From: Terriglobia bacterium
GTDB taxonomy: Bacteria; Acidobacteriota; Terriglobia; Acidiferrales; UBA7541
DNA length: 64,000 nt
Direction: 5' to 3'
NCBI GenBank assembly: GCA_020073375.1
Contig: JAIQFG010000001.1
Location: forward strand, 166,046-230,045
Shown: in pieces, positions 3,370 to 61,931 of the stretch
Position numbering within the stretch: position 1 is the first letter of the stretch
Layout: every line of letters begins with the position of its first letter
Made by a program: the position numbers and the translations under genes
The notes under the pieces: model-generated
Databases searched by the model: none
The model's input: only the letters and a program-made list of their open reading frames with translations
What the model was told of the DNA's origin: nothing

Positions 3370-4812
3370 CTAGTCGTTGTCCCGCTTGCGGACCTTCGCC
3401 GCCACAACCACGGGCCCAGTGGCAGTCTTAAACAGCAGCCCGCGTACCGAAATGACCGTGCCGTTCGTCAGGCTCGATGGACCAAGCAGATCCTCGAATT
3501 CCGTGGCGGAAGAAGTCTGCACCGTGAGCGTAGCCACGCCGAAAATGGCCGGCAATTTGGTGACGGTGATGGCCGACCCGTTCACGCCGGAGACCGTCGC
3601 GGTGAATTGCGAAGTGTGCAAGTGAACGTGAGCGGTGGAAGTGGAGATCGGAGGTCCGGCCGTGATGGTGCCGGGCTCGATCTGCAAATCCTGGCCGGGA
3701 ATCAGGTCGCCAGGTCCGGCAAACGCCCCGCCCGCCGGCACAGCCAGCCCGCCCAGCTGAATATCGAACGTCGTCGTGGGTGTGATGCTTACCAGCAGCG
3801 CGTCTCCCAAACGCGGCCCGCCATCATCTCCCTCTCGATCGAGGACGACCATTTGCAATTGGGTCGGCGGGGCCCCGGTGACCGAAACCAGCGTTCCCTC
3901 CAGGGACCTTGCTCCGCGCGATTCCTCGAGCTTCACTTCTTTGGCAATCAAAGAGCCGTCGGACTGTAAAGTGGTTTCAACCTCCACCAGTTGAGACACC
4001 GCCAGGCAGGAGAAATTGCTGGTCTTGCAGCCATGATCATCGAAATCCTCAAACTTGGTGCGCGTGCCGGCCAGAATGGTTTCGCTCATCGCACTGTTTG
4101 CGTTCTGGACCGTAAATTTATTGTTCGTCGCATCGATCGAGGTGATCAGGCCCGCGAATTCATTGTCGTCGAGCCTCCCGGGCCCCCCGCTCACCGGTAC
4201 GGGCGTCAATTCCGTAACCACGAAGTCGGAAGGGTCGTTCAGGGTCACGGACAAATCCGTCGCGATAATTTTATTCAGAAGAATATCGATCTTCAGGCCC
4301 ACGGGCGTCCCGGCGACCAGCGTCAGGGGAAATGGCGCGGAAGTGTACGTGATTGGCCCAGCGGCAGCAGGCTGGAACCGGCATGTGGTGTTCACCTTGC
4401 ATGCGCCGATATCGCTCGGACTCCCGTTAAACACGGTGAGCGCCGGGTGAGCCAGCGTTAACTGCAGTCCTTTATAGGTGCCGGCAGGCGCGCTCAAGGT
4501 GCTCAGAACCGCGGCTTCAGTTTCGAGCTTCTTCACTTCTATCTCCACCGGATCCCCGCCCGGGAGCAAGGAAAAATCCGCGCCGACCATCGGCTGCAGC
4601 AATGCGCCGGTGATATTCACCTCGAAGGAGAGCACGGAAACGCCGGCCGGAGGCGCGTCGCTCAGCGTGACGCTGAGTGTCGATGTGCCTGCGGTTGGCT
4701 GAGGTGGCGGCTGGGTGCCGCCACCCGTGGAAAGGCTTTGCGTTACCGAACAACCGCCTAGAAAAAGCGACGCCGACAAAACTGCAATTTCAAACCACTT
4801 TTCCTTTCTCAT
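3370..4812 (-). CDS. Exported lipoprotein with DUF4382 and DUF5666-type domains
   Basis: This is a 480-aa precursor. I choose ATG 4812 because GGGAGG lies just upstream; the GTG at 4827 would bury that ribosome-binding site inside the gene. The N-terminus has a basic start, a hydrophobic stretch and a lipobox (LFLGGC), so it should be lipid-anchored. A Pro/Gly/Thr linker leads into a domain resembling DUF4382 (STLSVTLSDAPPAGVSVLSF...), followed by two beta-rich units resembling DUF5666. Such proteins are common in Acidobacteria and their function is unknown. It is the last gene of the long minus-strand run, 88 nt after the VWFA gene, so it may work with that protein at the cell surface. Confidence 0.8.
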   Translation of the reverse strand: MRKEKWFEIAVLSASLFLGGCSVTQSLSTGGGTQPPPQPTAGTSTLSVTLSDAPPAGVSVLSFEVNITGALLQPMVGADFSLLPGGDPVEIEVKKLETEAAVLSTLSAPAGTYKGLQLTLAHPALTVFNGSPSDIGACKVNTTCRFQPAAAGPITYTSAPFPLTLVAGTPVGLKIDILLNKIIATDLSVTLNDPSDFVVTELTPVPVSGGPGRLDDNEFAGLITSIDATNNKFTVQNANSAMSETILAGTRTKFEDFDDHGCKTSNFSCLAVSQLVEVETTLQSDGSLIAKEVKLEESRGARSLEGTLVSVTGAPPTQLQMVVLDREGDDGGPRLGDALLVSITPTTTFDIQLGGLAVPAGGAFAGPGDLIPGQDLQIEPGTITAGPPISTSTAHVHLHTSQFTATVSGVNGSAITVTKLPAIFGVATLTVQTSSATEFEDLLGPSSLTNGTVISVRGLLFKTATGPVVVAAKVRKRDND

Positions 4813-4900
4813 TAAATCCTCCCGCACGGGCCTCGCGCACCGGGGCTGGGATGCTCCTGGGGCGGCGCATGTCCGCGAAAACCCGGCTATCGAATCGAAA

Positions 4901-7129
4901 TCAGGGTGTCGGCGGCATCAGCGCGAAATTGTTGCGCGCGAATGCAGCCATATCTCCTCCGTCTTCCACCACCACGGCCTGCACGGTATACCCGCCCGGA
5001 ACAAATTTTCCGAATGGCAGATTGATCCGAAAGGAGGCCGTGCGGCTCTTTGCATCCACTTCCGCGGGCTCGACCAGCGGCGTTTCATTCACTTTCTGGC
5101 CATTGGAGAAAAACACCAGGCCCGCGCGCAGCTTCGCGCCGTCCGTGTTTACGGGTACGTACGCCTGGAAAAAGACGTACAGCTGCTGCTGCGTGTTAAA
5201 CACGTGAGTGACGCTGGGCACGATCCTCTGGCCGGAAAATTCCAGCGGCGAGGATTTGAGTTTCACTTCCTGCCCGAGCGTCTTCTTCAGCACTTCCTTG
5301 GTCGCCTCGATCGTTTGCAGCTGTCCGGACAGCATCATGGGGCTGAGCTCTAAAGCTGCCGGCTGCGGCTTGGGCAAGTCCAAATCTTCCTCGAACGAGC
5401 CAATCCGTCCGCTCTCGTTTTCGCGAGCCAAAAATTTCAGCTTGTAGCTTCCCGGGCCCAGGACCACACCGCCCTGATACACGAGCGACTGTTTCTGCAA
5501 CTGCGCATAGCGATCGGAGGCCAGCGTGACGGTGATCTGATCGCGCAGCGCGGCCACGACTTTGTTCGACGCCGCGTCGTGCACCTCGGCGGCAAAATCG
5601 AAAACGGCCTGGTGGCGGTTGCGCTGCTGGGCCCAATTCAACACGCTTGAAGGAAGTTTTGCGGTGATGGGCACGAAAACATCCTTGTCGTCGAGCCGGA
5701 AATAGGAAGTCTCCAGCGCGATCGGCAGATCGACGTGCGGCGCGTCGTCCCGCAGCGCGTCCATGAACTGCTTTTCGCGGTCCTGCGCGGTGGCCAGGAT
5801 GGAATTGCGCGGCGCGTAGTATCCCTCCCGGAAGCGCACGCGCGCGCCCGGCACATCCACGCTGACTTTCAGGCGCCGCCAGGCCCCGTTCTTGCGCCCA
5901 TCGGTGCTGTAGTAGCCCACCAGGTAGTACCCGGTGGAATCCGCCTGCACCTGATGAAATACGTCGCTGAAATCTCCGAGGTCGAAGAACGACCGGCCGC
6001 CGGTATCTGAGGCCAGCGTCGAAAGCGTCTCGCGCGAGTCGTGCCGCGCTGCGCTTTCGGCCATGATTTCCGAGCCCGAAAACATGGCGCGGCTGGCCTT
6101 GTGCGCGACCGTGGCTTTCGCGCTGCTGATGAACATTGCCGAACCGGCCGAGGATCCGTCGCGGGCTTCGCCGCCCGCCGGCTCCGGAAGAAGTCCGCGA
6201 GCGTCCACGGCGTAGAAGGAAACGTTGGCGCGGTTGGCCGCGTCGGTGGTCGCTTCCAGCTGCGACCTGTTTTCCTCGCCGGTTTGCGTGATTCCGCTGG
6301 TGAATTGCACCACGGATTTTCTTCCTGGAATGTCGCGCAGCAGGCTGGAAAGCGATTCCAGCGCTGCCAGTTTGCGGTCCGTGTTGAAGATGTTGAATTC
6401 CGTGTCGTCCGCCGTGAACGCGGCCCCGGTATCCTGGCTGGTCGTATCCTCGCCGGGCAGGGCCGCGGCTTCGGCCATGTCCGCCAGCTGGGCGTCCTTG
6501 CCGGGGAGAAGAGAATTTATTGCGCGAAGCAGCACGGGGCGGTCGTTGGTGAAATGGACGGGCACCTTGACCTGGTTCCCGAACGTGGCAATGGCGACAA
6601 GGTCGGCGGGCGAAATCTGTTCGTTGATGTATTTTTGGGCCGCCTGCTGTGAGCGCAGCAAATCCTCGTTGTGCAGCGAAGTGAGATCGAAATAGAGAAC
6701 GATCAGGCGATGGTCGCGCACGGCGGCGTGCACATACTCGGGCTTGGGCGGCGGCAGCGTGCCCATGGGCACGACGATTGGGCCGGGATTGGTGACGTGC
6801 GCTCGCTCCACGCCTTCAATGTCGTTGTACTCGAACGAGGAAATTTTCTGCACCTGATTCTCCTCGGTGATCGTGAATTGCTCGGGCTTCAGGCCCTTGA
6901 TCGGATTGCCGCTCTTGTCGGTGACACGCACGTCGACCAGCACCAGGTCCACGGTGGTCCGGATCGTGCCCTTGTCGGGCAGGGCCACATCGGCGGCCTG
7001 TGTCGCTGGCTTGGCCGGATCACGTCTTGGGTTGACGGGCGCCTGCCGGGCCTGTTGCCCGGCCTGCTGCGCGGGAACCGCGGGAATAACCACTGAAATT
7101 GCGGCGAGTAGTGCAATTAGTTTGCGCAT
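4901..7129 (-). CDS. Exported VWFA-domain protein (Acidobacteria type)
   Basis: This is a 742-aa protein with an N-terminal signal peptide (MRKLIALLAAISVVIPAVPAQ) and a Gln/Ala/Pro-rich linker. A von Willebrand factor A domain follows at about residues 55-430, matching the architecture of the Acidobacteria VWFA family: a start like TIRTTVDLVLVDVRVTDKSG, then LIVLYFDLTS as the MIDAS-type strand. The rest is beta-rich. It should be periplasmic or surface-exposed and bind a protein or metal ligand. Its ATG overlaps the stop of the upstream Oar-type receptor (TAATG), so the two are translationally coupled and probably act together in adhesion or envelope assembly. The binding partner is not known. 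Confidence 0.85.
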   Translation of the reverse strand: MRKLIALLAAISVVIPAVPAQQAGQQARQAPVNPRRDPAKPATQAADVALPDKGTIRTTVDLVLVDVRVTDKSGNPIKGLKPEQFTITEENQVQKISSFEYNDIEGVERAHVTNPGPIVVPMGTLPPPKPEYVHAAVRDHRLIVLYFDLTSLHNEDLLRSQQAAQKYINEQISPADLVAIATFGNQVKVPVHFTNDRPVLLRAINSLLPGKDAQLADMAEAAALPGEDTTSQDTGAAFTADDTEFNIFNTDRKLAALESLSSLLRDIPGRKSVVQFTSGITQTGEENRSQLEATTDAANRANVSFYAVDARGLLPEPAGGEARDGSSAGSAMFISSAKATVAHKASRAMFSGSEIMAESAARHDSRETLSTLASDTGGRSFFDLGDFSDVFHQVQADSTGYYLVGYYSTDGRKNGAWRRLKVSVDVPGARVRFREGYYAPRNSILATAQDREKQFMDALRDDAPHVDLPIALETSYFRLDDKDVFVPITAKLPSSVLNWAQQRNRHQAVFDFAAEVHDAASNKVVAALRDQITVTLASDRYAQLQKQSLVYQGGVVLGPGSYKLKFLARENESGRIGSFEEDLDLPKPQPAALELSPMMLSGQLQTIEATKEVLKKTLGQEVKLKSSPLEFSGQRIVPSVTHVFNTQQQLYVFFQAYVPVNTDGAKLRAGLVFFSNGQKVNETPLVEPAEVDAKSRTASFRINLPFGKFVPGGYTVQAVVVEDGGDMAAFARNNFALMPPTP

Positions 7130-10100
7130 TAGAAATGTACCCTCATCAGAATATCCATCGAACGCATGGACTTGGGGCCGGTAAGCAGTCCCGCATCTAC
7201 GGCGTCAACCACGGTAATCACGTTGGAAAAGTTCGGCGAATTGGTCAGGTTCTGCGTTTCCCAGCGAAGCTGGAATGTGTATTTTCCGTCCGGCCCGAAA
7301 TGCATGCGGCGTTCCAGCGCCAGGTTCACGTTAAATGTCGATGGGCCGACGATGGTGCCGCGCGCGGCGTTGCCGAACGTCCCGGTGGCGGGCAATTGGA
7401 AGGCCTTGACGTTGAAAAATTGCGTCGTGGTCTGCTGGCCGGACGGAAGATTCGGGTCGCCGATGCGGTCGGGGCGCTGGGAGAGCAGCGGTCCAACACT
7501 GTTGGTAAACGAAGCTGAGATATACGGCGTGAGATGGCTGCCGGTGTTGTATTGCGTGGTGCCGATCACCTCCCAGTTGCCGAACAGCTTTGCGCCCGTG
7601 CCGCTGCGCAGCCAGTGCCGGCGGTCGCCGAACGGCAGGTCGTAGCCGAACGTCGAGCGAATGTCGTGGCGGATATCGAAGAAAGAATTTCCGCGTTCCG
7701 CCGCCAGATTGTTGTAATCCTGGATCAGGCCGCTGATATGCCCGGCCCCCACCACGCTGGCATCGTCGATGGAATGCCCGAGCGTGTACAGGAACAACAT
7801 GCGCAAGCCGTTGGACATTCTTCTTTGCACGCGAACCTGCAGGCCGTTGTAGATCGAATCGCCGCCCGAGGTTTCGTAGGTGAAGTCCTGGGCGTTCGCG
7901 ATCCTGCGCCGCTGGTCGGAACCGATCTGGCTGCCGGGCGTGGGCTGGTTCGGATCGGAGACCAGATCCAGATGCGTGCCTTTGGTTCCCGTGTAGAGAA
8001 TTTCCATGATGTATTGATTTCCGAACTGATGCTCGAGCGATAGATTCCAGATTTGCGCGTAGCCGATTTTGTACCGCGGGTCCACCGCGATCGTATTGGT
8101 TACCAACCCGTTCGAGGTCTGCACGGGCGCGGCCGGAAATCCGTTCTCCAGCGTGAGCAGTTGCGCAGCCGAAGTATTCAGCGTGGTCGCGACCGCCCCG
8201 GGTGTCGGCGGCTGGTTGATCATTTCCTCGAAGATCTGGTCGAGGATCGACCCGTTATAAAACACGCCGTACCCCGCGCGGATCACCGGGCCGCCGTGGC
8301 TGAAGGGTCTCCACGCAATTCCGATGCGCGGGGCAAATTCATCATTCTTCGCATACACCAGCGAATTGGGCAGCGTGTTTCCGGTATATGGATTCTTGTT
8401 CCCGGGTTGCACCACTGCGGCGCTCGTGATGGCGGGATTCACGATGACGGTCGCGAGGTGATTGTATTTCTCGGAAAACGGCGTGTACCTTTCATAGCGC
8501 ACCCCGTAGTTGATCGAGAATCGGGAACTCACCCGCCAATCGTCCTGCGCGTACGCGTCAAATTGCCATTGCCGACCGTAGTTGGCCGAGCCGTATTGCA
8601 CCGTGGTCTGCTGCGGCAGGCCCAGCAGGAAATCCGCAAGATCGGAGCCCGGAAGATTTGCGATGGGGTTACCGGACGCGTCCAGTTGCCCGGTCATGAG
8701 TCCGGTGAATTGGAACACGCCGCGCGACGAAGGATCCGTGTACGGATTGAGCTGCCTGCGCCGGATTTCCGCGCCGAAGCGGAGCGTGTCGTGCGGAAGC
8801 GTGACGGAAATGTCGTCCATGATCCGCAAGGTCTGATTGCGCACCAGCGAAGGCGATGGATCGGCCAGGGGCTCGAAGTTGGTCAGCGCAAGTTCGGGAG
8901 ACCCGAAATCGATGGGCGCGGACGAAACGCCCGTAATTCCGGCTGCCGCGGCGAGGTTGTTGATGTATGCGTTGTTGCTCAGGGACTGAAGGCGGCTGCG
9001 GTTGAAGTTGACACGGGTTTCATTCAGCAGGCGCGGGGTCCAGTTCTGCGTGAATGTGAATGTGGCGTTCTGATCGAATGTATCGGTATTGGCGTACAGC
9101 GAAGGAAATGGCGTCAATGCCTGGCCGCGAGCGGAGACAAAATTCACAACTCCTGAAACGCTGAGCTTCTGCGAAATCGTGTGCAACACGCGGAAATTTC
9201 CGACGTCAATCGATTGCGGGCTGGTGGTCAGCAAATGGTAATTGTCAATGTTGGTCGCGCCGTTCGCGGTCGCCAAACCGGTCAGGTTCGGCTGGGGGAA
9301 CAGTCCGATCAGTTTTTTCGCGGCGTTGTCGAGCCGGCTGCTCGGGATCTGGCATCCCGCGCCGTTGCCCAGGTCCGGGAACAGCTGCCGCGGCCCGGAA
9401 ATATTGGTCAGTGGATCAAATATTTGCAGCGGATTGCCGTTGGCATCCAGCAAGCCGCAGAAATTCCCGCTGCGTTCCGCATCGTTCGGCATGTTTCCGA
9501 ACAGGTCTTGCGCATTCGTGCGGCGCGTCATCTCATAGTTGGCGAACCAGAAGGTGCGGTCGGTGCCATTGTAGATTTTCGGGATGGTCAGCGGCCCGCC
9601 GATGTTGGCGCCGAACCTTTCGCTGTAATGCGCAACCTTTTCGGCGGCCGGGCCGTTGATGGCGTAGGGCCGCGCATCCCATACGGAATTGTCGTAGTAA
9701 TCGTAGAGCGTTGCGTGCATCTGATTGGACCCGAGATGCTTGATGGTGTTGCGAACCGTGACGTCGGCCACACCGCCGGCCAGATTGTCGCCGGGCGCGC
9801 CGCCAGCCTTCGAGTGCTTACTGCCTGAGGACTGATGCTTCGGCTTTTTCGTTGCCCCGGACCCAGAAGATCCCGAGGTGCCGTCGATGACGGACAAATC
9901 GTCCTGGCCGTCGTCGAGTCCGGCCGCGGTGGAACCACGCCCCACTGCGCCGCTAATCAAATAGGCATCCGACGATGAAGAGGGTGACGGCTGATAGGCT
10001 CCGCTCCCAGCCGTGGAATTTTGGGGAACCGAAGTGGATTGCTGGCCGGTATCCGCATTCGCCGTGAGTATCCCGTCAGGCTCCACTTGGTCAAAGCCGC

Positions 10101-10821
10101 CTTTTTTTGACTTCGTCGATTTCTGCGCCGATGCGGTTGCGGTCGCCGCCTTGGCATGTTTCGGATTTGGCGTTGCGGACGCAGCGGGAGCGGCTGCGCT
10201 TTCGGCGGATTTCGCGGGCGCTGCGGAAGTATCCCCGGCGGCGGCAGCCTTGTGATGTTTCTTCGTGGCTGCGGCGGAATCGCCGGCATCGGCCTGGTCG
10301 GCCTTCACCGATTCCTGCTTCGGTGTTGCATCCGCGGTTTCCGCGGGCTTTGCTTCGGCCGTGTCCGGCTGCTCGGCGCTGCCCTTGCGGCGCAGGACCA
10401 GATCGATAGACTCGGGCATGGTCATCTGGGGCGCGGAACCCGCCTTCACTTCGCTATCCCAGATCGCGGCGCCCAGGCCGAGTTGCGTGGCCTCGATGTG
10501 ATACTGGCCCGCGGGCACGTCCGGCACGGTGAACTGGCCGTCCTCGTCGGTGAGCGTTCCCCAGCCCTTGCCGGAGGCCACGTGGCGGATGCGCACGGTC
10601 GCGCCCGGAACTACAGCGCCGCGCACGGTCCGCACCATGCCGCGAAGCGTCACGTTGGCCGCGGCTTGCTCTGACGAGGCAGACGCCGCACCGGCCACGG
10701 CTGGCGCCGCATCCTGCGCCGCGGCGCGCGCTGCAAATGTGCCGCAACTCGCAACTGCGAGAACCAGCGGCAATACCACTGCCCCCAGAATTCCGCTGAC
10801 TTTCATCCGCTTGCTCAACAT
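7129..10821 (-). CDS. Oar-type TonB-dependent receptor with N-terminal CarboxypepD_reg-like domain
   Basis: This is a protein of about 1,230 aa. I start at ATG 10821, which has GGGAGGAAG upstream and gives a signal peptide; the frame extends to 10935 with an implausible Cys/Arg-rich leader. After the signal peptide comes a carboxypeptidase-regulatory-like fold (TLRGMVRTVRGAVVPGATVR...). A stretch of about 190 residues dominated by Ala, Lys, Ser and Thr follows (about residues 140-330), then a plug-like part and an outer-membrane barrel ending in an aromatic residue (ILMRVHF). Oar-like proteins are large outer-membrane proteins; substrates are mostly unknown. The low-complexity stretch is unusual in length. 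It lies 46 nt after the ABC exporter gene and overlaps the VWFA gene. Confidence 0.85.
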   Translation of the reverse strand: MLSKRMKVSGILGAVVLPLVLAVASCGTFAARAAAQDAAPAVAGAASASSEQAAANVTLRGMVRTVRGAVVPGATVRIRHVASGKGWGTLTDEDGQFTVPDVPAGQYHIEATQLGLGAAIWDSEVKAGSAPQMTMPESIDLVLRRKGSAEQPDTAEAKPAETADATPKQESVKADQADAGDSAAATKKHHKAAAAGDTSAAPAKSAESAAAPAASATPNPKHAKAATATASAQKSTKSKKGGFDQVEPDGILTANADTGQQSTSVPQNSTAGSGAYQPSPSSSSDAYLISGAVGRGSTAAGLDDGQDDLSVIDGTSGSSGSGATKKPKHQSSGSKHSKAGGAPGDNLAGGVADVTVRNTIKHLGSNQMHATLYDYYDNSVWDARPYAINGPAAEKVAHYSERFGANIGGPLTIPKIYNGTDRTFWFANYEMTRRTNAQDLFGNMPNDAERSGNFCGLLDANGNPLQIFDPLTNISGPRQLFPDLGNGAGCQIPSSRLDNAAKKLIGLFPQPNLTGLATANGATNIDNYHLLTTSPQSIDVGNFRVLHTISQKLSVSGVVNFVSARGQALTPFPSLYANTDTFDQNATFTFTQNWTPRLLNETRVNFNRSRLQSLSNNAYINNLAAAAGITGVSSAPIDFGSPELALTNFEPLADPSPSLVRNQTLRIMDDISVTLPHDTLRFGAEIRRRQLNPYTDPSSRGVFQFTGLMTGQLDASGNPIANLPGSDLADFLLGLPQQTTVQYGSANYGRQWQFDAYAQDDWRVSSRFSINYGVRYERYTPFSEKYNHLATVIVNPAITSAAVVQPGNKNPYTGNTLPNSLVYAKNDEFAPRIGIAWRPFSHGGPVIRAGYGVFYNGSILDQIFEEMINQPPTPGAVATTLNTSAAQLLTLENGFPAAPVQTSNGLVTNTIAVDPRYKIGYAQIWNLSLEHQFGNQYIMEILYTGTKGTHLDLVSDPNQPTPGSQIGSDQRRRIANAQDFTYETSGGDSIYNGLQVRVQRRMSNGLRMLFLYTLGHSIDDASVVGAGHISGLIQDYNNLAAERGNSFFDIRHDIRSTFGYDLPFGDRRHWLRSGTGAKLFGNWEVIGTTQYNTGSHLTPYISASFTNSVGPLLSQRPDRIGDPNLPSGQQTTTQFFNVKAFQLPATGTFGNAARGTIVGPSTFNVNLALERRMHFGPDGKYTFQLRWETQNLTNSPNFSNVITVVDAVDAGLLTGPKSMRSMDILMRVHF

Positions 10822-10867
10822 AGCTTCCTCCCATTTCCATTTATCTGCATGGCCGTCCTTGCATCCC

Positions 10868-12715
10868 CTACAGGCGCGTGTCCGGCGAATCCATTTGCAG
10901 CGAATACAGCCTGCGATACACGCCTTCGCGCGCAATCAATTCCTCATGCCGTCCGAACTGCACGATCATTCCGTTTTCGATGACCGCAATTTTGTCGGCC
11001 CGACGCACGGACGAAAGCCGGTGCGCGATCACGAACACGGTCCGTCCTTGCGATATTTTTTCCAGGGCTTCCTGGATCAGCTCTTCCGACTCCGAGTCCA
11101 GGTGCGATGTGGCTTCGTCAAAGATCAAAATACGGGGATTCCGGAGGATGGCGCGAGCGATGGCGATGCGCTGGCGCTGCCCGCCGGAAAGCTGCACGCC
11201 GCGTTCGCCCACCTGGGTGAAATATCCGTCCGGCGACTCGAACAGGAAACCGTGCGCGTGCGCGGCCATGGCGGCGTCCACGATTTGCGCGTCGGTCGAG
11301 TCCGTATTCGCGTATGCGATGTTGTCGCGGCCCGTTCCGGAGAAAAGGTAGGTTTCCTGCGACACCACCCCGATTTGCTTGCGCAAGTGCTCCATGGGAA
11401 TGCGGTTGAGCGGCTTTCCGTCGAGCAGAATCCGGCCCTCGGTCGGGTTGTAAAAGCGCAGCAGCAGGTTGGCGATGGTCGTCTTTCCCCCGCCGCTCGG
11501 GCCCACCAGCGCGATCACTTCCCCGGCTTTAACGTGCATGGAAATATTCTTAAGCACCGGAATTTCCGGGTCGTAGCCGAAGCTCACGTTTTCAAAGCGC
11601 ACATCTCCGACGATTGGCGCCGCGGCATCCTCGACAATCGCCAGCTTGGGGAACGACGGCTTTTGCAACTCGCGCGACCGGGCCGTGGGTTCGGGCGTGA
11701 TGTCCATCACCTCGAACACGCGGTCGCCAGCCGCCAGAATTTTCTGGATCGAAAGGTTCATCTTGCTCAGTGATTTCACCGGGCCGTACAGCTTGTCCAG
11801 GTAGGTGACGAATGCGACCAAGCCGCCGATCGTGATGCTGCCCGCGACCACAACCCACGGTGTTCCCACCTTGATCACGATCAGCGTGCCCGCAAATATG
11901 CACAGCTCCACGCTGGTGGAATACAGCGCTGAAAGTTTCTTCAGCCGCACGCGCCCTTGCAGCAGCTCTCCTGATTTTTTCGCGAACCGCGACACCTCGA
12001 ATTTTTCCGCGCAGAATGTTTTCACCACGCGCACGCCGCCGATGGCCTCCTCCGCAAGGCTGGACATGTCCCCCACCAGGTTTCGCACCCGCCGCGAGAA
12101 TTGTTTCACCGGCTTGCGGAAAAACAGCACCGAACATGACAGGGCCACGACCGTTGGCAGCAGGAACAGCGTCAGCTTCACGCTCACCGCGAACATGGCA
12201 GCCAGCGCGCCGACCAGCTTCACGGTTTCCGAGCCGATGTTTTGCATCAGCGTGTCCAGGAATCCTTCTACCGTGTCGATATCGCCCGAAATGCGCGATA
12301 GCATGTCCCCGGTGCGTCCTCGGTCGAAGCACTCCACGGGCAGCGCCATGGTGTGCTCGTACAAATCGCAGCGCACGCGGTTCACCAACCGTTGATTGGC
12401 CAGTTCCTGCAGCACGTCCGAACCGAAATCGAAAACTTGCTGGCCCACAAACGCTCCCGTCAGCAGCCACACCACGGCCGGCAGACGAGTCAGGTCCTGA
12501 TGGCGGATGACCCGGTCCAGCAACATGAATCCGAAAATCCATGGCCGCGCGAGGTCGAGCAGCGTGCTGCCGACGATGCATGTGCCCAGCGTCATCAGAA
12601 TCGGCCACACGCCGGCGGCATATCGCATCAGCCTGCGGAAAGTTCCCTTCCGCGACTGTTCGGTGGGGCGCAGGAACGCCTGGCTTCCCTTCGGAATTTC
12701 GACCTTGTCGTTCAT
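10868..12715 (-). CDS. MsbA-type ABC exporter (fused permease and ATPase)
   Basis: This protein of about 615 aa has an N-terminal six-helix type I exporter membrane domain (about residues 30-330) and a C-terminal ATPase. Walker A is GPSGGGKTT (about 401), the signature LSGGQRQRIAIARAI (about 508), Walker B ILIFDEATSHLD and the H-loop VIAHRLSS. All catalytic motifs are intact, so a homodimer could be active. The family exports lipids, lipid-linked sugars, peptides or drugs, and sequence alone does not give the cargo. I chose ATG 12715 (preceded by AAGGA); TTG 12736 overlaps the previous gene. It starts 11 nt after the last of three APH-fold genes, implying a shared transcript and pathway. Confidence 0.9.
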   Translation of the reverse strand: MNDKVEIPKGSQAFLRPTEQSRKGTFRRLMRYAAGVWPILMTLGTCIVGSTLLDLARPWIFGFMLLDRVIRHQDLTRLPAVVWLLTGAFVGQQVFDFGSDVLQELANQRLVNRVRCDLYEHTMALPVECFDRGRTGDMLSRISGDIDTVEGFLDTLMQNIGSETVKLVGALAAMFAVSVKLTLFLLPTVVALSCSVLFFRKPVKQFSRRVRNLVGDMSSLAEEAIGGVRVVKTFCAEKFEVSRFAKKSGELLQGRVRLKKLSALYSTSVELCIFAGTLIVIKVGTPWVVVAGSITIGGLVAFVTYLDKLYGPVKSLSKMNLSIQKILAAGDRVFEVMDITPEPTARSRELQKPSFPKLAIVEDAAAPIVGDVRFENVSFGYDPEIPVLKNISMHVKAGEVIALVGPSGGGKTTIANLLLRFYNPTEGRILLDGKPLNRIPMEHLRKQIGVVSQETYLFSGTGRDNIAYANTDSTDAQIVDAAMAAHAHGFLFESPDGYFTQVGERGVQLSGGQRQRIAIARAILRNPRILIFDEATSHLDSESEELIQEALEKISQGRTVFVIAHRLSSVRRADKIAVIENGMIVQFGRHEELIAREGVYRRLYSLQMDSPDTRL

Positions 12716-12726
12716 CTCTTCCTTGC

Positions 12727-13794
12727 TCACCGGCAAAACTCCAGGGCCCGTTTGATTTCCTGCAAATAAAATTCCTCGAGCTGTTCCCAGCTCTTTTCGC
12801 CTTTGTTGCGCGACTTTTTCAAGCCGCCCAGCAAACTGTGAAACACGAATACGGCCCAGTAGCAGCCCAGGCTCTCCGCGGCCCGGGGCACTTTGGCCAG
12901 ATAGGTTGTAAGGAAAGCCGTCGTGGCGCGCTCGGCTCGTTCCATGTCATACCCTTCCTTGAACGCCGTCAGCCGCAGGACGCGGACAAATTCCGCGGCG
13001 TCCTTGGCGGGATCGGACGGACGGCAGCGGTCGAGGTCGATGACGCTGGTCGCCACGGGGCTCAAAAATACGTGGTCGTGGTGGTAGCGGCCGTGCGTGC
13101 ACACGAAGTAACGGTTCGCGGCCAGTTGCGCCACGCGCTGCTCCAGCTGATCCATCACCTCGCGAACCATGTCCAGTTTTTCCGGGCGCGCTGCAGCCGC
13201 CTTGATTACGCGGCTCGCCATGCGAAACAGTTTCAACGAATCCCAATCCGAGTCCGGCGCGCCCAAGCTCAAGGAAGATAGGTGCATGGCGGCCAGCCAT
13301 TCCGCGGCCTCGCCGCTTCCCGAGACCAGGTCGATGGACGTGTCCCCGTCGAACACGGCGCCTAGCGGGGTTCCCGGAACGCCTCGCATGAAAAGCAACG
13401 AGTGCTCGGCAATAAATCCGAGCGGCTCGGGCACCTGGTATCGTCCTGACTTATTGAATCCGTTGTTCCACAATTCCAGGTTGGCTTGATAGCAGTGCGC
13501 GCCCAGCTCGTCACCGTAGAGCTTCGCGTAGACTACGTTGTCCGGACCGAACGTGTAGCGCAGCGTCAGCCGTCCGGTGCCGGTGTTCTGGATAATCTTC
13601 GCATCGCAATCCGAGGCCGACGCCGTGTTCCCGGGCCCGAGCTTCGGACAAATTCGCGAGGCGATAAATTCCGCGGAAATAAATTCCGATGCTTTCTGCG
13701 CCAGCGCCTGCTTGGAACTTCCGGAGTCGGACAGCAAGCCTTCCGCCATCGGCGGCCCCATGCTGGACCATTGTTTCTGCTCTGCGATGCCCAT
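12727..13794 (-). CDS. APH-fold phosphotransferase-like protein, catalytic Asp replaced (paralog 1)
   Basis: This gene encodes about 355 aa from ATG 13794 (AAGGG upstream); the frame also opens earlier at GTG 13878, overlapping the previous gene. The fold is that of aminoglycoside/choline phosphotransferases: a Lys-bearing strand (VVYAKLYGDE), a Pro-rich hinge (YQVPEPLGFI), and the catalytic region THGRYHHDHVF followed by VIDLDRCRPSDPAKD. In active family members the first motif is HGD with a downstream Asn. Here Asp is Arg236 and the Asn position is His, so ordinary phosphotransfer is doubtful. The metal-binding Asp of VIDLD is kept. It lies between paralog 2 and the ABC exporter. It may bind nucleotide or a small molecule without catalysis. 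Confidence 0.75.
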   Translation of the reverse strand: MGIAEQKQWSSMGPPMAEGLLSDSGSSKQALAQKASEFISAEFIASRICPKLGPGNTASASDCDAKIIQNTGTGRLTLRYTFGPDNVVYAKLYGDELGAHCYQANLELWNNGFNKSGRYQVPEPLGFIAEHSLLFMRGVPGTPLGAVFDGDTSIDLVSGSGEAAEWLAAMHLSSLSLGAPDSDWDSLKLFRMASRVIKAAAARPEKLDMVREVMDQLEQRVAQLAANRYFVCTHGRYHHDHVFLSPVATSVIDLDRCRPSDPAKDAAEFVRVLRLTAFKEGYDMERAERATTAFLTTYLAKVPRAAESLGCYWAVFVFHSLLGGLKKSRNKGEKSWEQLEEFYLQEIKRALEFCR

Positions 13795-13838
13795 CGGCTG
13801 CCCTTTCAGATATAAATCCAAAACCTTCGCGGACCGCG

Positions 13839-14876
13839 TTACGCGGCCATTTCCGAAACCGCGCCGCACCGCACCCACCGCTCAAATTCCGCCTGGTACG
13901 CCCGGCCCATCGATTCGCGCTGCGCTGCGTCAACTTTCCTGTTCTTCAACAATTTTGCGAACGCCTTGAAGGCCAGCAGCGCGCGAAAATACGCCAGGTT
14001 TTCCAGGTTCCCCGCGCTGTGCGCGCCGTATTCCGAGACGAATTCCTGCGCTACGCGCTCGGCGCGATCCGGATCGCCCCGTTCCTCCAGGCACGTCTTC
14101 TTCAGCACGTGGCAGAAGCGCGCCACGTCCTTCGCCGGGTCCGACAGGCACAGCTTTTCCACATCGATTACCGTGGCGCGGCTCCCATCGATGAACACAT
14201 GCGCGGGGCGGAATTGCCCGTGCATCGGCGCCACTGCCGGCGAGGCATTGCTCTTCGGCGTAACCGCTCGCAGATCGTGGATCATGTCGATCAGAAGGCT
14301 GGAATGCTCCGGGCACTCGGCGGCAACTTTTGCGACTGCATCCGCGATCTTCAGGATTTCGAGTTTTTCGCAGGGGGATTCCGCGCGCAGCCCGGGTATC
14401 GCCGTGTTCTGGAATTTCACCAGCCACTGCGCCGCCAGCCGAGCATCTGTCAGGGATGCTTCCAGGGGAACGCTCCCCGCGCGCTGGTCCATCGGCGCGC
14501 CTTCGGCGGAGCGCATCAGCACCAAGTTCGCTTCGGGAACGATTCCCAACGGTTCGGGAACTTCCAGGATCGAGCCGGAAACGAACCCGTTCGTCCAAAG
14601 ATGCGTGAGCGAGCGGTGCGCCTCATCTGCGGCCGCGAAATCAAAATAGGCTTTGCCGTAAATGCGCGCGGAGGCGCCGGCGGAATACAGCAGCGTAGAT
14701 CTGCCCGCGGCCTTGTTCCGGACGATCTCGAAACGCCACTCGGGCTGCGCGCCTTTGTTCGCGGATTCCGGCAGCAAAGCGAGCACGCGCTCGCGGACAA
14801 AATCCGGATTGCCGAACACGGCTTCCTGATTCTGTTTCCATGCCCGCCGGTCTTGCCTTGTGCCTTCTCGACCCAT
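13839..14876 (-). CDS. APH-fold phosphotransferase-like protein, catalytic Asp replaced (paralog 2)
   Basis: This gene encodes about 345 aa from ATG 14876, which has AGAGGAAA upstream and begins 29 nt after the stop of paralog 3. It shares layout and phrases with paralog 1: YGKAYFDF for the ATP-binding Lys strand, LEVPEPLGIV at the hinge, then MHGQFRPAHVF and VIDVEKLCLSDPAKD. The catalytic HGD is HGQ here (Gln221), and the usual Asn is His. The second acidic motif is intact. This combination suggests a pseudokinase or an altered chemistry. Tandem arrangement of three related genes in the same order and orientation points to duplication within the operon. Confidence 0.75.
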   Translation of the reverse strand: MGREGTRQDRRAWKQNQEAVFGNPDFVRERVLALLPESANKGAQPEWRFEIVRNKAAGRSTLLYSAGASARIYGKAYFDFAAADEAHRSLTHLWTNGFVSGSILEVPEPLGIVPEANLVLMRSAEGAPMDQRAGSVPLEASLTDARLAAQWLVKFQNTAIPGLRAESPCEKLEILKIADAVAKVAAECPEHSSLLIDMIHDLRAVTPKSNASPAVAPMHGQFRPAHVFIDGSRATVIDVEKLCLSDPAKDVARFCHVLKKTCLEERGDPDRAERVAQEFVSEYGAHSAGNLENLAYFRALLAFKAFAKLLKNRKVDAAQRESMGRAYQAEFERWVRCGAVSEMAA

Positions 14877-14905
14877 TCGTTTCCTCTCGCCAATCGATTC
14901 CACGA

Positions 14906-16267
14906 CTAAGCGGATGCCTTTCGTGTGCCCGCATCCGGAGGTTCCGCTTCCGCCGGAGCCACGCCGGATTCCCGCACGCACTGCATGTACATCGCGACGC
15001 GCGCCGGATTCGTAACCTTCAGCACGCTGGCCACGTAATACAGCGCTTCAAGGCTGGAGAGCGCCGCGTACGGAGCCACGCGCGCGCTGATCGCATTCCC
15101 CAGGGCTTCCGGCATGGCGCCGAAATAGCTTTCCAGGAACGCATCGATTTCCCGGTCCGCGAATTCAATCGACTTCTCCAGTGAGTAGGCGGTGGTCCTC
15201 ATGTGGCCCACAAACGATCCGAGGTCGCGTGCCGGATCTCCGATGCAGAAGCGTTCAAAATCAATCACCGTCACGAAATTGTTTGCCACGTAGACGTGAT
15301 CGGGATGGAAATCGCCATGGACGTGCGTGGCGGCCACGCCCTGAAAAAGATCGAAGCGCTGCTCGATGGCCGCGGCATATTGCCGCAACTCGGATTCAAG
15401 CTGCGGCTGGTCGTTCTTCAGCGCGTCGACAAACGTCCGCAGCGAAGCCTTTTCGGCTTCGTAAGCGCACTCGCGGAGAGATTCCAACGGCATGTTGTGC
15501 AGTTTCGCCAGCCATTGCCCGGTCATGCGCGCGTGATTGAAGGAAATGTCGTTGCCATCGCCCAGGAACGATCGCAGCTTTGTTCCGCGCGCTTTTTCCT
15601 GGATGATCATGCGCAAATCCTCGAAGTGGTGCAGCGGCTGGGGAATCCGGAATTGATGGTCCTGGCCGAAGCCCGCCCCCCAAAGCAGCCGCATGGCCTC
15701 AAACTCCTTGGCCGCTTTTCCCACCGCCCGCGTGGTGTCCTGCTTGCCCACCAGTTCGACCACGTTCTGTTTTCCCGTTCTCTTGTCGGCCACCAGCAGC
15801 TTGTAGGCAAACACATGGCGGCTGCCCGGACGGCGGCGCATGGGTTGAATGGTCAGGTCAGCGATCGAGTGGTGCTCGGAAAAGATGCTTCCCAGCCGCG
15901 CGCGAAAATCGGAGTTGAACAGCGCTTCCGGCAGCGGCACCCGCACCGCGCACATCGCCAGCAGGGGCATCAAGAACAAAAATACGGCGCCTACCGGCGA
16001 GGCGCCTATCGAATGCGCTTGCGCAGCCAACTGAACCGTGTGGTGCGTGGATGGAAACTGATTCAGCAGGGAAACAACGCCAGGATGCGCGGAATGACCG
16101 GCGCTCCAGCCGATCGGGCCGCTGAGAGATGCAGTGCATTTGTCCATCCATCGGAGCGCGCCAGGGCGCGAATTTTTCTTCAGCACCGCCGCCCCAGCGG
16201 TTATATGCAGCCTTGAAGGCCGGCCCGCGCGACTCCATTCGCGCCCTGCATTTCGATTTGTTTTCAC
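14906..16267 (-). CDS. APH-fold phosphotransferase with intact HGD motif (paralog 3)
   Basis: The open frame is 453 codons. The only start coupled to the upstream gene is GTG 16267, whose TGA-overlapping GTGA arrangement and GGAG 8 nt upstream suggest coupled translation. The kinase-like fold, however, seems to begin only near residue 130, after a poorly conserved leader with one hydrophobic segment (AVFLFLMPLLAMCAV), so a later start is possible. The catalytic region is HVHGDFHPDHVYV (Asp319) and VIDFERFCIGDPARD, so unlike its two neighbours it keeps the catalytic Asp, while the Asn position is again His. It is the likely active member of the trio. The substrate is unknown. Confidence 0.75.
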   Translation of the reverse strand: MKTNRNAGREWSRAGRPSRLHITAGAAVLKKNSRPGALRWMDKCTASLSGPIGWSAGHSAHPGVVSLLNQFPSTHHTVQLAAQAHSIGASPVGAVFLFLMPLLAMCAVRVPLPEALFNSDFRARLGSIFSEHHSIADLTIQPMRRRPGSRHVFAYKLLVADKRTGKQNVVELVGKQDTTRAVGKAAKEFEAMRLLWGAGFGQDHQFRIPQPLHHFEDLRMIIQEKARGTKLRSFLGDGNDISFNHARMTGQWLAKLHNMPLESLRECAYEAEKASLRTFVDALKNDQPQLESELRQYAAAIEQRFDLFQGVAATHVHGDFHPDHVYVANNFVTVIDFERFCIGDPARDLGSFVGHMRTTAYSLEKSIEFADREIDAFLESYFGAMPEALGNAISARVAPYAALSSLEALYYVASVLKVTNPARVAMYMQCVRESGVAPAEAEPPDAGTRKASA

Positions 16268-18219
16268 CTGGTCACTCCAATCGACAGAGAAAACTTTCTA
16301 TTGGAAGATGTGACTCGGAAAGTAGCTTTGTGCCCGCCTTCGTCGGGAAATGGTTCGCTCCACGCGAGCGAAGCGCCTTGTTCCGGGCGGATCCAGACGG
16401 CAGTGGAATTCGCGCTCCAGCCGCGCGCCGCGCCTTCGCGATACGGCTTCAATGCCGCGCGGCCCTGGCGCAAAAGATTTAAGTAGTCGGGCGAAAGAGA
16501 GATATCGGTCGAGATTTCCTCCAGTTGTTCTGGCAGGGAGTAGGAAACCTGGAGGCGCGCCTCGCCCATCGCCAGGCAAATCCGTTTGATCAGTCCGTAC
16601 CCCTTGCTGCTCGCCTCCGCATTTTGCAGTTCCACTTCAACCGCGGGACCGTCCGACAGCCCTTTTACAACCTCATATGCATCGTGCTCCATCCCCTGAT
16701 CGGTCAGCGCGCCGGGATGATTGGCGGGCACTTCCATGAACCGGTTGAGTTCTTCCATCCAGTTCCAGTCGTCGGAAGGATTTCCGATCACCATTTTTCC
16801 CTGCGGTCCTTCGATGCTGAACAGCGCGACCAGCCTTCCGCCCCATCGCGGCGTGATCACCGCGAATAGTTTGTCGTTCTTCAGGACCAGTTCCTTCTCT
16901 CCGTCCGCGTCGATGTCAACCAGCGCGGCGTGCGCGTGGCCGTCATGATGCGTCGCCCATTGCGCGGCCTCGCCGATTACCGCCGCGACTCGGCTATGGC
17001 TTCCCAGCGCGCGAATCCATGGGCTGGGATGTCCATTCGCCTCGGCACTGCCGAACGGGCCCTCGGACGGCGTGTGCCATGCGCTCTCCCATGTGGAAGT
17101 CATAAGGTGCTTCTGCGCCAGATCGATGAGCGCGGGATCTCCTCCGGAAAGAGACGCCTGCTCCACTTTCTGGTCGGCCCACAAAAAATAACGGCGGTAG
17201 CGGTCCCACTGCGGATCGAAAAACCATTTTTCGTATCCCTCGCCCGCCGCGGAATGGTTGGCCAGTTCCAGAAAAGTTCCCACGTCGATGGGCCGCGGCG
17301 GCGCGGGCCGGCCGGCCTCGCTCCAGTCGCAAATTCGCGTCGGCCGGATGCCGGGATTTTCGTTCATCCAGCGAAGCACGCCTTCAAACTGCGCCGGCGC
17401 ATTCTTGTCCCAGGGTCCCAGCCCGGCGGCCTTTTCCATATCGTCGCCGTAGAGCGCGAGCAAGCCTGGGCCGAGATCTTCTCCATCCAGCGAAGCAAGC
17501 CAAGTGCATTGCTCGCGCAGTTTCGCGAACTGGCCGTCGCTTCCCGGAGGAATATTCAGCCGAAGCTGCGTTGCGATCGGCAGCGCGGTCAGACCGTGTC
17601 CGCCTTCCACAGGGCACGGCTGGTACAATTCGGCATCCTTGCGCGGTACCCGGTCGTAAATTTTGCGCGGAGAATTATTCCCATTCATGGGAAGCAAAAG
17701 GCGGTCGTCGAGAAGGACAAAACGATAGCCGCCGTTCAATAGCCGCGGATCGTTCAGCACCGGTGCCATGCGCGGCGTGTCCCAGACGCGCTCCGGCGGC
17801 CAGAACACTTTGACGTCTTCAGGATCTATTCCCAGGTGAGTTTGGTAGAGGAACAATTCTTCATTCAGCTGCCTTAAATTATGCTCATAGCTGAAGAACC
17901 TCATGATATTTTGCGCGTAGCAGCTTCCAACGATTTCGATTAAACCCTCGCCGATCAAATCTCGAACCTGCGAAAGGAAGCCCGGCTGGTGCCAGGCGAT
18001 GGCCTCCATCAGTGTGCCGCTCAGGTGAATGTTGGCGGGAATGTGGTAATGCCGGTGCAGCTCAAGGATCCAGGCGAAACCGGACTTGTCCCGGACCGAA
18101 CCGATGGCTTCGCGCAAGCCGTGCCGGTTCTCATAGCCTTCCGTAATCAGGTACTGATTTGCGTGATGCACAAAAGCAAAGGAAATCGCCACGCCCGCCA
18201 CCTCGGGACCACTCTTCAA
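16264..18219 (-). CDS. GH57-like glycoside hydrolase / glucanotransferase family protein
   Basis: This gene encodes about 651 aa with start TTG 18219 (AAGG upstream). The N-terminal two-thirds resembles a GH57 (beta/alpha)7 barrel: an HHANQY segment near residue 19 corresponds to the first family motif, and ALYGDDMEKAAG to the motif with the catalytic Asp. The PPERVWDTPRM region may hold the nucleophile Glu. The C-terminal third is beta-rich, like the DUF1925/1926 modules that follow such barrels. GH57 enzymes act on alpha-glucans or transfer glucan chains. No signal peptide is evident, so it should be cytoplasmic. It is the first gene of the long minus-strand run and overlaps paralog 3. Confidence 0.8.
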   Translation of the reverse strand: MKSGPEVAGVAISFAFVHHANQYLITEGYENRHGLREAIGSVRDKSGFAWILELHRHYHIPANIHLSGTLMEAIAWHQPGFLSQVRDLIGEGLIEIVGSCYAQNIMRFFSYEHNLRQLNEELFLYQTHLGIDPEDVKVFWPPERVWDTPRMAPVLNDPRLLNGGYRFVLLDDRLLLPMNGNNSPRKIYDRVPRKDAELYQPCPVEGGHGLTALPIATQLRLNIPPGSDGQFAKLREQCTWLASLDGEDLGPGLLALYGDDMEKAAGLGPWDKNAPAQFEGVLRWMNENPGIRPTRICDWSEAGRPAPPRPIDVGTFLELANHSAAGEGYEKWFFDPQWDRYRRYFLWADQKVEQASLSGGDPALIDLAQKHLMTSTWESAWHTPSEGPFGSAEANGHPSPWIRALGSHSRVAAVIGEAAQWATHHDGHAHAALVDIDADGEKELVLKNDKLFAVITPRWGGRLVALFSIEGPQGKMVIGNPSDDWNWMEELNRFMEVPANHPGALTDQGMEHDAYEVVKGLSDGPAVEVELQNAEASSKGYGLIKRICLAMGEARLQVSYSLPEQLEEISTDISLSPDYLNLLRQGRAALKPYREGAARGWSANSTAVWIRPEQGASLAWSEPFPDEGGHKATFRVTSSNRKFSLSIGVTR

Positions 18220-18363
18220 AGGACCTTATGCAGACACACCCGCACCCGAAAAGGAATTTCCCTTTTATTGGGTTTTTTGCGGACCCCAAAAATCCGCAAA
18301 TGCCTCGCACGCCGCTGGGACGATCGTGCCGGGAGCATCTAGGCTCATGGCGAGGTTTGGCGC

Positions 18364-18392
18364 ATTCTGAAGATTACTAATTATTAAGTCAA
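18364..18392 (-). promoter_or_regulatory. Candidate sigma-70 promoter of the GH57-APH-ABC-Oar-VWFA run
   Basis: On the minus strand TTGACT (18387-18392, 5/6) is followed by a 17-nt spacer and CAGAAT (18364-18369, 4/6), about 145 nt before the GH57 start. The surrounding 18360-18430 stretch is markedly AT-rich. The rest of the gene-free interval 18220-18638 shows no gene or terminator I can support. Confidence 0.5.
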
Positions 18393-18638
18393 CAAAAATT
18401 TTTGATTAATCAGCATTCATTTTGCGGCGTAGTCCTGGTACTACTAGACTGAAAAGAATTGTGAGAACGGCGATTTTGCTGCGCAATTTCAAAATATCCG
18501 CGGGGATTTAGGGAAGAAATTCCAGATTGAGCCCGGCAAGATAGATAATCAGCAAGTTAACGCTGGAAGTAATCCGTGCAGTCGATTCGCCGGCTTTTTT
18601 CAAGCGAATTATTTCACGCGGAATTCACTTGCGCCGGC

Positions 18639-19751
18639 CTAGCGCTTGGCGGGTGCGGCAGCGGCGGGCGGCACTGCGCCCGATTGCCTGGTGATGTCGA
18701 ATTCATCCACGACTTGCCCGCCGATGGTCTTAAAGTAGCCGTGCGCTTTGTTCGCGTCGCCGTTCACGTTGAACGTAATAAACAGCGCCCCGTACTGCGC
18801 TTTCTGGTTCGACGTATAAATCTTTGCCCACTCCCCTTTGCAGCCGTACGGCGGGTCAATCGGCCAGCACCGCTTCTGCACACGGATGCTTTCGCCGCCG
18901 AGCCCGGAAACAAACGCAAACGTTCTCCCGGGCGTCACCGCAAGTCGGTTCGGATCGGGATAATCGGGATCCACTGCTTGCGTGCTGAAATTGGCGAGCG
19001 TCTTTGTGCGCTCGTAGCTGTGCTCGTGACCCGTGGCGATAATCGCACCGGCTTCCCGGCACGCCTCGTACACTCCCCATCCCATGTCGTCGGTTTTGTC
19101 CCCCACCTGCATGGCATTCATGTTCTTGTGCCAGCTGCACACCCTCCAGGCATGGTTGTCGGACTTTAACTGGGCCCGGATGAAAGGCGCATAGATCGCG
19201 TCGCCGACGCCGTTTTGCTCGCCCACAAACACGACTTTCAATCCCTTGAAGGTCACCGAATACATTTGATTGTTCAATTCCAAACTGTCCGGCGTGATGC
19301 CCATGCGAGGAAACCGCTCCAGCTGCATTCCCGCATAAGAGGGAGAGGCAGTCGTGGGCCACTTGCCCACGTCATGATTTCCCACCGAAACAAAGTAGGG
19401 GAAGTTGGGGCCCAGAACATTATTGACCGAAGACCAGAACCCGACCGGATCACTATGGTAATCGAAATCCCCCTGATGCAGGACTGCCTGCGCTCCCTCG
19501 GACTTGAGCAGATTCAGGACGGCGCGCTGGTAGGTTCCAATCCCGACGTCGCCGATAAAGGCGATCTTCAGGTTTGGTTCGGTCGCGATCGAGCCGTCGG
19601 GCGGTGTTACCTCCGGCCTCTTTGGTGTGGCCGTGGATCCCGGCTTTTTCGCAGCCGGTTTAGTCTTTGATATGGAAGACTTGGGAGCTTGCGCAAAACC
19701 GGCGATCCCGGCAAAGGCAAGAAATGCCAAACATAAACCGATTTTCCGCAT
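18639..19751 (-). CDS. Exported calcineurin-like metallophosphoesterase (purple acid phosphatase-like)
   Basis: This gene encodes 370 aa from ATG 19751 (GGAGAGGG upstream). A signal peptide (MRKIGLCLAFLAFAGIAGFAQA) and a Lys/Pro/Thr-rich linker precede the catalytic domain at about residue 60. The two-metal site motifs are in order: FIGDVG, GDFDYH, GNHD and GHEHSYERT. The tyrosine after GDFD and the GHEHSYER end are typical of purple acid phosphatase-like enzymes, so a periplasmic phosphomonoesterase is likely. The substrate is unknown. Its own promoter is not visible, and the downstream GH57 operon is separated by about 420 nt. Confidence 0.85.
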   Translation of the reverse strand: MRKIGLCLAFLAFAGIAGFAQAPKSSISKTKPAAKKPGSTATPKRPEVTPPDGSIATEPNLKIAFIGDVGIGTYQRAVLNLLKSEGAQAVLHQGDFDYHSDPVGFWSSVNNVLGPNFPYFVSVGNHDVGKWPTTASPSYAGMQLERFPRMGITPDSLELNNQMYSVTFKGLKVVFVGEQNGVGDAIYAPFIRAQLKSDNHAWRVCSWHKNMNAMQVGDKTDDMGWGVYEACREAGAIIATGHEHSYERTKTLANFSTQAVDPDYPDPNRLAVTPGRTFAFVSGLGGESIRVQKRCWPIDPPYGCKGEWAKIYTSNQKAQYGALFITFNVNGDANKAHGYFKTIGGQVVDEFDITRQSGAVPPAAAAPAKR

Positions 19752-19893
19752 GACCCTCTCCGACAAATCTCAGCCCGGCGTTCCGGATGATTCGTATCCG
19801 ATCCAGTCGCGCACTACCCTATCCCTGGTTCCCCGATCCGGATAACCGCTCTCGGTCCCGGGAATTGGATGCGCTTGGCCCCGCCACTGCCTC

Positions 19894-61881: not shown

Positions 61882-61931
61882 AAGCCCCGTCAGGGGCGAA
61901 AGGACGTAGCCCAGCGCGTAAGCGCTGGTTA
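61882..61931. repeat. Dispersed-repeat-like element with two hairpins
   Basis: gccccgtcaggggc is one short hairpin; cagcgcgtaagcgctg about 30 nt on is another. I recall similar paired hairpins as dispersed elements in Acidobacteria. It lies in the gene-free stretch 61801-62194 after the POR-like gene. Confidence 0.6.

Follow-up and report, generated by a model that had tools for sequence, protein, structure and literature searches.

A cross-phylum gene cluster of GH57, APH-fold, and ABC exporter proteins, with an Acidobacteriota form that may build and phosphorylate an α-glucan oligosaccharide

NdvA and ChvA are exporters of the ABC_membrane type linked to glucan enzymes, and kinase-pseudokinase pairs are known mainly from protein kinases. 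The export of cytoplasmic α-glucans by bacteria is an open question; for the mycobacterial capsule, PMC4981310 describes the transporters for α-glucan export as yet to be identified. Here we describe an eight-gene unit in a 64,000-nucleotide (nt) stretch (the window) of a 5.29-Mb Acidobacteriota draft genome, which encodes a GH57 α-glucanotransferase-like protein, three APH-fold proteins (APH1 to APH3), an ABC exporter, an Oar-type outer-membrane barrel, a VWFA protein (VWA), and a DUF4382/DUF5666 lipoprotein-like protein (DUF4382) (Table 1). We tentatively assign the unit, as the form found in Acidobacteriota, to a cross-phylum cluster that builds and phosphorylates an α-glucan oligosaccharide, with predicted ABC export. 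Such a cluster makes the export question testable, because the Actinomycetota loci of named strains unite α-glucan-synthase-type and glucanotransferase-type domains, a kinase, and an exporter. No description of a cluster of this kind was found in the open-licence full texts of PMC.

The original prediction, made from the sequence alone, had placed eight open reading frames (ORFs) on the minus strand, and all of them are open at the predicted positions. Its intergenic gaps proved exact on recomputation: GH57 and APH1 overlap (−4 nt, GTGA); 29, 44, and 11 nt separate APH1 from APH2, APH2 from APH3, and APH3 from the ABC gene; and 46, −1 (TAATG), and 88 nt lie between ABC and Oar, Oar and VWA, and VWA and DUF4382, respectively. 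The family assignments are borne out by Pfam, except that the last gene scores higher for DUF5666 than for DUF4382 and that the VWA_2 match of VWA lies below the cut-off. In the comparison genome G005 (locus L012), a sister species of the same genus, all eight genes occur in identical order, with protein identities of 85 to 95%. Since this order is kept in G005 and the core recurs across phyla, the unit is confirmed to be more than a chance arrangement.

Protein searches (E ≤ 1e-3) yielded 149 APH1, 386 GH57, and 203 APH3 relatives, of which the best 120 each were examined. Among the first 62 APH1, 44 GH57, and 53 APH3 rows, 15 contigs (equal size being the proxy for identity) were shared between APH1 and GH57, and 9 were shared among all three proteins. 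A species-genome collection scanned with a 42-row GH57 alignment gave 36 further GH57 loci. Of these, 14 are from Actinomycetota and 9 from Bacillota, and the other 13 are distributed over Acidobacteriota, Geobacteraceae, Chloroflexi, and a deltaproteobacterium that bears the label Myxococcota in the kinase tree; the cluster is widespread across phyla but patchy and rare. An Asp-bearing APH gene adjoins GH57 in all 35 loci counted (L037, cut inside GH57, is left out), and the ABC exporter gene is present in 24/24 uncut non-Bacillota loci (L011, L037, and L038 being cut). Gene order was compared across genomes, as the original prediction had proposed, and the homologs of GH57 and APH1 were not found scattered; in phyla other than Bacillota, neither were those of the ABC gene.

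The three-kinase form of Acidobacteriota, GH57-APH1-APH2-APH3-ABC-Oar-VWA, is found in the window, L007, L008, and L012; in L011, the contig breaks off after the third gene of this order. The 14 Actinomycetota loci encode a GT5-GH57 protein, APHa, and ABC, followed by APHb (9/14, with a fragment also in L023), APHc (13/14), and APHd (14/14); GT5 and GH57 lie in one frame in 12 of these loci, the remaining two having broken frames, and the GT5 domain of L036, with 447.7 bits, exceeds the TIGR02095 cut-off of 328.45. All nine Bacillota loci have the order GT4-APH-GH57. In seven of them the next gene encodes a HipA-like kinase, and a RIO-like protein is encoded ahead of the three genes or in their vicinity. 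Other arrangements include GH57-APH1-APH3-sulfotransferase-ATP sulfurylase/APS kinase-ABC in Geobacteraceae (L010), GH57, a single chain of APH1 and APH3 types, an APHb-like gene, ABC, and an HlyD-type protein (L013), APH-GH57-four further APH-ABC in Chloroflexi (L016), GH57-APH-ABC (L009, L014, and L039), and APH-GH57-ABC (L025). The original prediction had joined a cytoplasmic branch followed by export to a surface-handling part; the former fits and is strengthened by this synteny, whereas the surface genes are lineage-specific. It had overlooked two APH proteins without the catalytic Asp, the GT5 and GT4 domains of relatives, and sulfation genes in two loci.

Pfam agrees with the original prediction that all three APH proteins have the APH fold, but the catalytic Asp is kept only in APH1. 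The ATP-binding Lys, the HGD Asp, and the DFx metal Asp of APH1, the residues of an active kinase, are invariant in a 40-row alignment, and the HGD Asp is present in 119 of the best 120 of 149 homologs, the remaining one having a gap. Neither APH2 (HGQ) nor APH3 (HGR) has the full active-kinase residue set. Among the best 120 of 203 APH3 homologs, every one has Arg at the catalytic position, and Lys91, Asp253, and Asp255 of APH3 are invariant across 44 aligned rows; its structure model adopts a kinase fold with a pLDDT of 90.1. Extra APH copies occur in 21/35 loci of several phyla, and 49 of these 50 copies are without the catalytic Asp, as are both extra copies of the window. Most aligned altered copies retain the ATP-binding Lys and the metal Asp and therefore resemble conserved pseudokinases. 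In the kinase tree, Asp-intact rows and APH2/APH3/APHc rows split to two sides (support 93/93 and 92/84), and the loss of the catalytic Asp therefore looks old. One Asp-bearing kinase with Asp-less paralogs would represent, among the small-molecule kinases of bacteria, what kinase-pseudokinase pairs are among protein kinases. Two chains combine such domains: the 861-aa protein of L013 (11140-13725) holds a kinase of the APH1 type that bears the catalytic Asp together with a copy of the APH3 type in which Ser takes its place, and the 622-aa metagenome protein P0303 carries two altered APH copies, both HGR.

GH57 scores 60.3 bits against the Pfam cut-off of 21.2. It retains the catalytic Glu (ERVW) and Asp (DDxEK), with E143, D259, and D260 invariant across 42 rows; among the 37 aligned locus pieces, E143 is found in 35 and D259/D260 in 36, the remainder being gaps. 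Both the profile and the structure model match the 4-α-glucanotransferase of Thermococcus litoralis, and on this similarity of sequence and fold GH57 is likely α-glucanotransferase-like. Two metagenome GH57-APH fusions were also observed, P0210 (whole) and P0120 (a GH57 piece with APH). Because of the T. litoralis match, the GT5-GH57 fusions, and the adjoining GT4, we link the cluster to α-glucan and infer a pathway for the assembly and phosphorylation of an α-glucan-type oligosaccharide and, in phyla other than Bacillota, for its export. A glycogen-synthase-type enzyme, represented by the fused GT5 in Actinomycetota and the adjoining GT4 in Bacillota, would make an α-1,4-glucan chain; the only GT5 match in the genome of the window is on another contig. 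GH57, judged by its fold and catalytic residues, may then cut, transfer, or cyclize the chain, and APH1 would phosphorylate the chain end or a sugar on the chain. APH2 and APH3, as binders of nucleotide, glycan, or both, may hold APH1 or activate it in a kinase-pseudokinase assembly. The ABC protein is predicted from its family to move the product across the inner membrane, and in Acidobacteriota the Oar-type barrel and VWA, judged by synteny, might receive it at the envelope. The position of GT5 on another contig also argues against ordinary intracellular glycogen housekeeping, in which GH57 and APH would handle maltodextrin as in the GlgE/maltokinase route and the exporter would be incidental; we regard this alternative as very improbable, considering the linkage of ABC in the uncut non-Bacillota loci, the conservation of altered APH copies in 21/35 loci, and the score of APH1 with the maltokinase model (TreS_Cterm, TIGR02457), 26.2 bits against a cut-off of 375, on which its candidacy as a maltokinase was rejected.

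Oar and VWA belong to the three-kinase Acidobacteriota form, following ABC in 4/4 loci that are long enough (window, L007, L008, and L012) with identities of 53 to 95% (53 to 90% for the Oar neighbor in L007, L008, and L012). VWA scores 259.5 bits with TIGR03436 (acidobacterial VWFA) against a cut-off of 81.25, the best match of its genome, and is 71% identical to the neighbor in Acidobacteriaceae KBS 96 (L044). The core of GH57, three APH genes, and ABC might instead adjoin a separate Oar-VWA-DUF4382 envelope set present in some Acidobacteriota. The genome has many paralogs of both genes, 57 Oar rows for PF25183 (pieces included) and 16 VWA genes above the TIGR03436 cut-off; Oar matches are limited to L007, L008, L012, and L014 among the 36 loci, with none in the examined DNA of the Actinomycetota and Bacillota loci; and a stretch of 17.6 kb following VWA in KBS 96 gave no DUF4382 match. 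We consider two adjoining units doubtful, however, given the constant placement of Oar and VWA after ABC with short gaps or overlaps and the OMP barrel directly after the ABC gene in the distant locus L014. Moreover, the VWA of the cluster is the only one of the 16 within 1 kb of an Oar match, and the Oar-VWA pairing is therefore not the rule of this genome. DUF4382, 89% identical in G005 (L043), was seen only there besides the window; six other cluster-bearing genomes gave no match in a search run without a positive control.

The window exporter matches MsbA best among NCBIfam families (TIGR02203, 460.5 bits against a cut-off of 602), and it also matches HepA, ChvA, and peptide exporters, all below their cut-offs among 25 of 190 NCBIfam families. 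Sulfation genes stand in the L010 cluster, namely, the sulfotransferase and ATP-sulfurylase/APS kinase genes, and in L018 (Paenibacillus sp. yr247), where three sulfotransferases and an APS kinase lie upstream of GT4-APH-GH57. On the downstream side, L018 encodes glycosyltransferases, a nucleotidyltransferase, an epimerase, and a UDP-glucose dehydrogenase; these flanking genes occupy L018 3027-7592 and 13260-19261. In L007 and L008, the gene of a DSP-type phosphatase with a signal-like N terminus separates ABC from Oar, and a calcineurin-like phosphoesterase lies upstream of the cluster in the window and L012; either would fit phosphate removal outside the cell. Taken further, the cluster could be an undescribed bacterial apparatus for α-glucans that carry phosphate and, in some lineages, sulfate as well. 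A pair of starch synthase and glucanotransferase would feed a complex that marks the glucan, made up of an active APH kinase and, in many lineages, one to four pseudokinase paralogs, and export would be by a dedicated ABC transporter; endospore formers would need no transporter because the mother cell deposits the glucan on the spore. If true, no bacterial system dedicated to phosphorylating and exporting α-glucan, and no complex of APH-family pseudokinases, would precede it. This extended version is unlikely as a whole, and the link between spore deposition and the lack of an exporter in Bacillota is a guess. All nine Bacillota loci belong to genera known for endospore formation; ten flanking Bacillota proteins were checked, and one, beside L026, has a spore-type look with a score below the cut-off.

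Several points weigh against the pathway proposed here. The Pfam scan found no glycosyltransferase within the unit of the window. Besides the genome of the window, GH57 was found in 2 of 100 relatives, one match being partial, and in 0/395 other sampled genomes of the phylum. An ABC gene accompanies 0/9 Bacillota loci, none of which has a match above 200 bits within 8 kb. The window ABC protein passes no cut-off among the NCBIfam families examined, so that its cargo is not settled by family, and exporters of this class also move lipids and peptides. Proteins of the APH fold have many different substrates; for the APH3 model, methylthioribose and homoserine kinases are the closest structures. 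In 14/35 loci no altered APH copy was found (the nine Bacillota loci, L009, L014, L025, L039, and the cut L038), and pseudokinases are therefore not required everywhere. In L039, Arg replaces the ATP-binding Lys of the Asp-bearing copy itself, and the two-sided kinase tree comes with long-branch warnings.

Upstream of GH57, the original prediction had a promoter at 18392-18364. Its hexamers match at 9 of 12 positions, but three such sites were found against 4.7 (standard deviation, 2.2) in shuffles; because shuffled sequence yields as many, the hexamers alone are uninformative. A putative control region ahead of GH57 is supported by a conserved stretch (Table 1) that has one match per genome in 2 of 41 genomes searched, those of the window and G005, the spacer outside it being less similar between the window and G005 by eye. 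No Rfam family reaches its gathering score in this stretch, and the predicted folding of 18270-18370 is no better than that of shuffles (z = −0.35). Beyond the last gene by 505 nt, a SAM-I/IV riboswitch predicted at 2864-2758 (−) (57.9 bits against a gathering score of 41.1) marks a new leader past DUF4382; a short ORF (2512-2778) overlaps its end. Elsewhere in the window, 21036-23746 (−) encodes a molybdopterin-type dehydrogenase large subunit, with a 151-aa ORF upstream resembling its iron-sulfur partner by eye, and an Acido-Lenti-1 RNA at 61883-61929 (−) scores above its gathering score.

Table 1. Features of the eight-gene unit and its upstream flank (window coordinates)
Feature	Position	Strand	Gene start	Basis
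GH57 α-glucanotransferase-like protein, 651 aa, own subgroup	16264..18219	-	18219	Pfam GH57, E 2.6e-16
APH1, APH-fold kinase, Lys + HGD + DFE intact	14906..16267	-	16267	Pfam APH, E 6.8e-21
APH2, APH-fold, HGQ replaces HGD, predicted pseudokinase	13839..14876	-	14876	Pfam APH, E 3.2e-9 (ORF taken from 14981); alignment
APH3, APH-fold, HGR replaces HGD, predicted pseudokinase	12727..13794	-	13794	Pfam APH, E 3.2e-10; alignment
ABC exporter half-transporter, MsbA/ChvA-like	10868..12715	-	12715	Pfam ABC_membrane, E 8.2e-42; ABC_tran, E 6.7e-35
Oar-type outer-membrane β-barrel + CarboxypepD_reg domain	7129..10821	-	10821	Pfam OMP_b-brl_4, E 3e-184
Secreted-type VWFA protein, 742 aa	4901..7129	-	7129	TIGR03436, 259.5 bits; signal-like N terminus by reading; Pfam VWA_2 below cut-off
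DUF4382/DUF5666 lipoprotein-like protein	3370..4812	-	4812	Pfam: DUF5666 strong, DUF4382 just below cut-off
Calcineurin-like phosphoesterase, signal-like N terminus, upstream neighbor, membership uncertain	18639..19766	-		PF00149, E 2.8e-6; 78% identity in L012
Conserved upstream control region or leader (candidate)	18277..18410	-		93% over 134 nt in G005

Among described systems, the acarbose acb cluster comes close in composition. In an acarbose-kind pathway, a glycosyltransferase and a glucanotransferase would assemble a pseudo-oligosaccharide that is phosphorylated inside the cell for self-protection and exported by ABC; APH-fold enzymes often protect producers, and the patchy distribution of our cluster fits. 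The acb cluster likewise combines a kinase and an ABC exporter with AcbQ, which is a putative amylomaltase (PMC7682106). Nevertheless, an acarbose-kind product is improbable: no sugar-phosphate cyclase, aminotransferase, or nucleotidyltransferase, and no other cyclitol gene, is among the eight window genes (the flanks of other loci were checked in part), a similar order kept across phyla is unusual for an accessory metabolite, and the altered APH copies would be left unexplained. The class V lanthipeptide kinase LxmK shares an APH-type fold with APH1 and is its best NCBIfam match, at 51.2 bits against a cut-off of 315, on which APH1 was rejected as such a kinase. A pathway for a ribosomally synthesized and post-translationally modified peptide, in which a peptide is the substrate of the APH proteins, as of LxmK and TvaE, GH57 or a glycosyltransferase adds sugar, and ABC exports the peptide, has the least credence of the alternatives, as no lyase partner or precursor is seen among the eight genes, a precursor gene would hardly fit into the short gaps of the unit, and no short upstream ORF was seen in common among the four compared loci.

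The preferred α-glucan pathway resembles cyclic β-glucan export by NdvA/ChvA in that TIGR01192 matches the window ABC protein (280.7 bits); this score is far below the cut-off of 585.4, the enzyme is of the α- rather than the β-glucan type, and kinases are present. With the mycobacterial GlgE route and exported capsule it would share a kinase, a maltokinase there, and α-glucan made inside and exported (PMC4981310), but the unit encodes neither GlgE nor TreS and no mycobacterial locus is among the 36. Like SelO and SidJ, kinase folds that gained other catalysis (PMC12599244), in the sense of non-phosphoryl transfer such as AMPylation or glutamylation, the altered APH copies keep ATP-site residues; unlike them, they belong to the APH family and adjoin GH57 and an exporter, and the likeness is one of residue pattern only. 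Compared with the T. litoralis GH57 4-α-glucanotransferase (PDB 1k1w/1k1x), the window GH57 forms its own subgroup with invariant HHxNQ and YxQN, the latter aligned opposite F-Y-E-P of the T. litoralis enzyme, and it is linked, unlike that enzyme, to kinases and an exporter.

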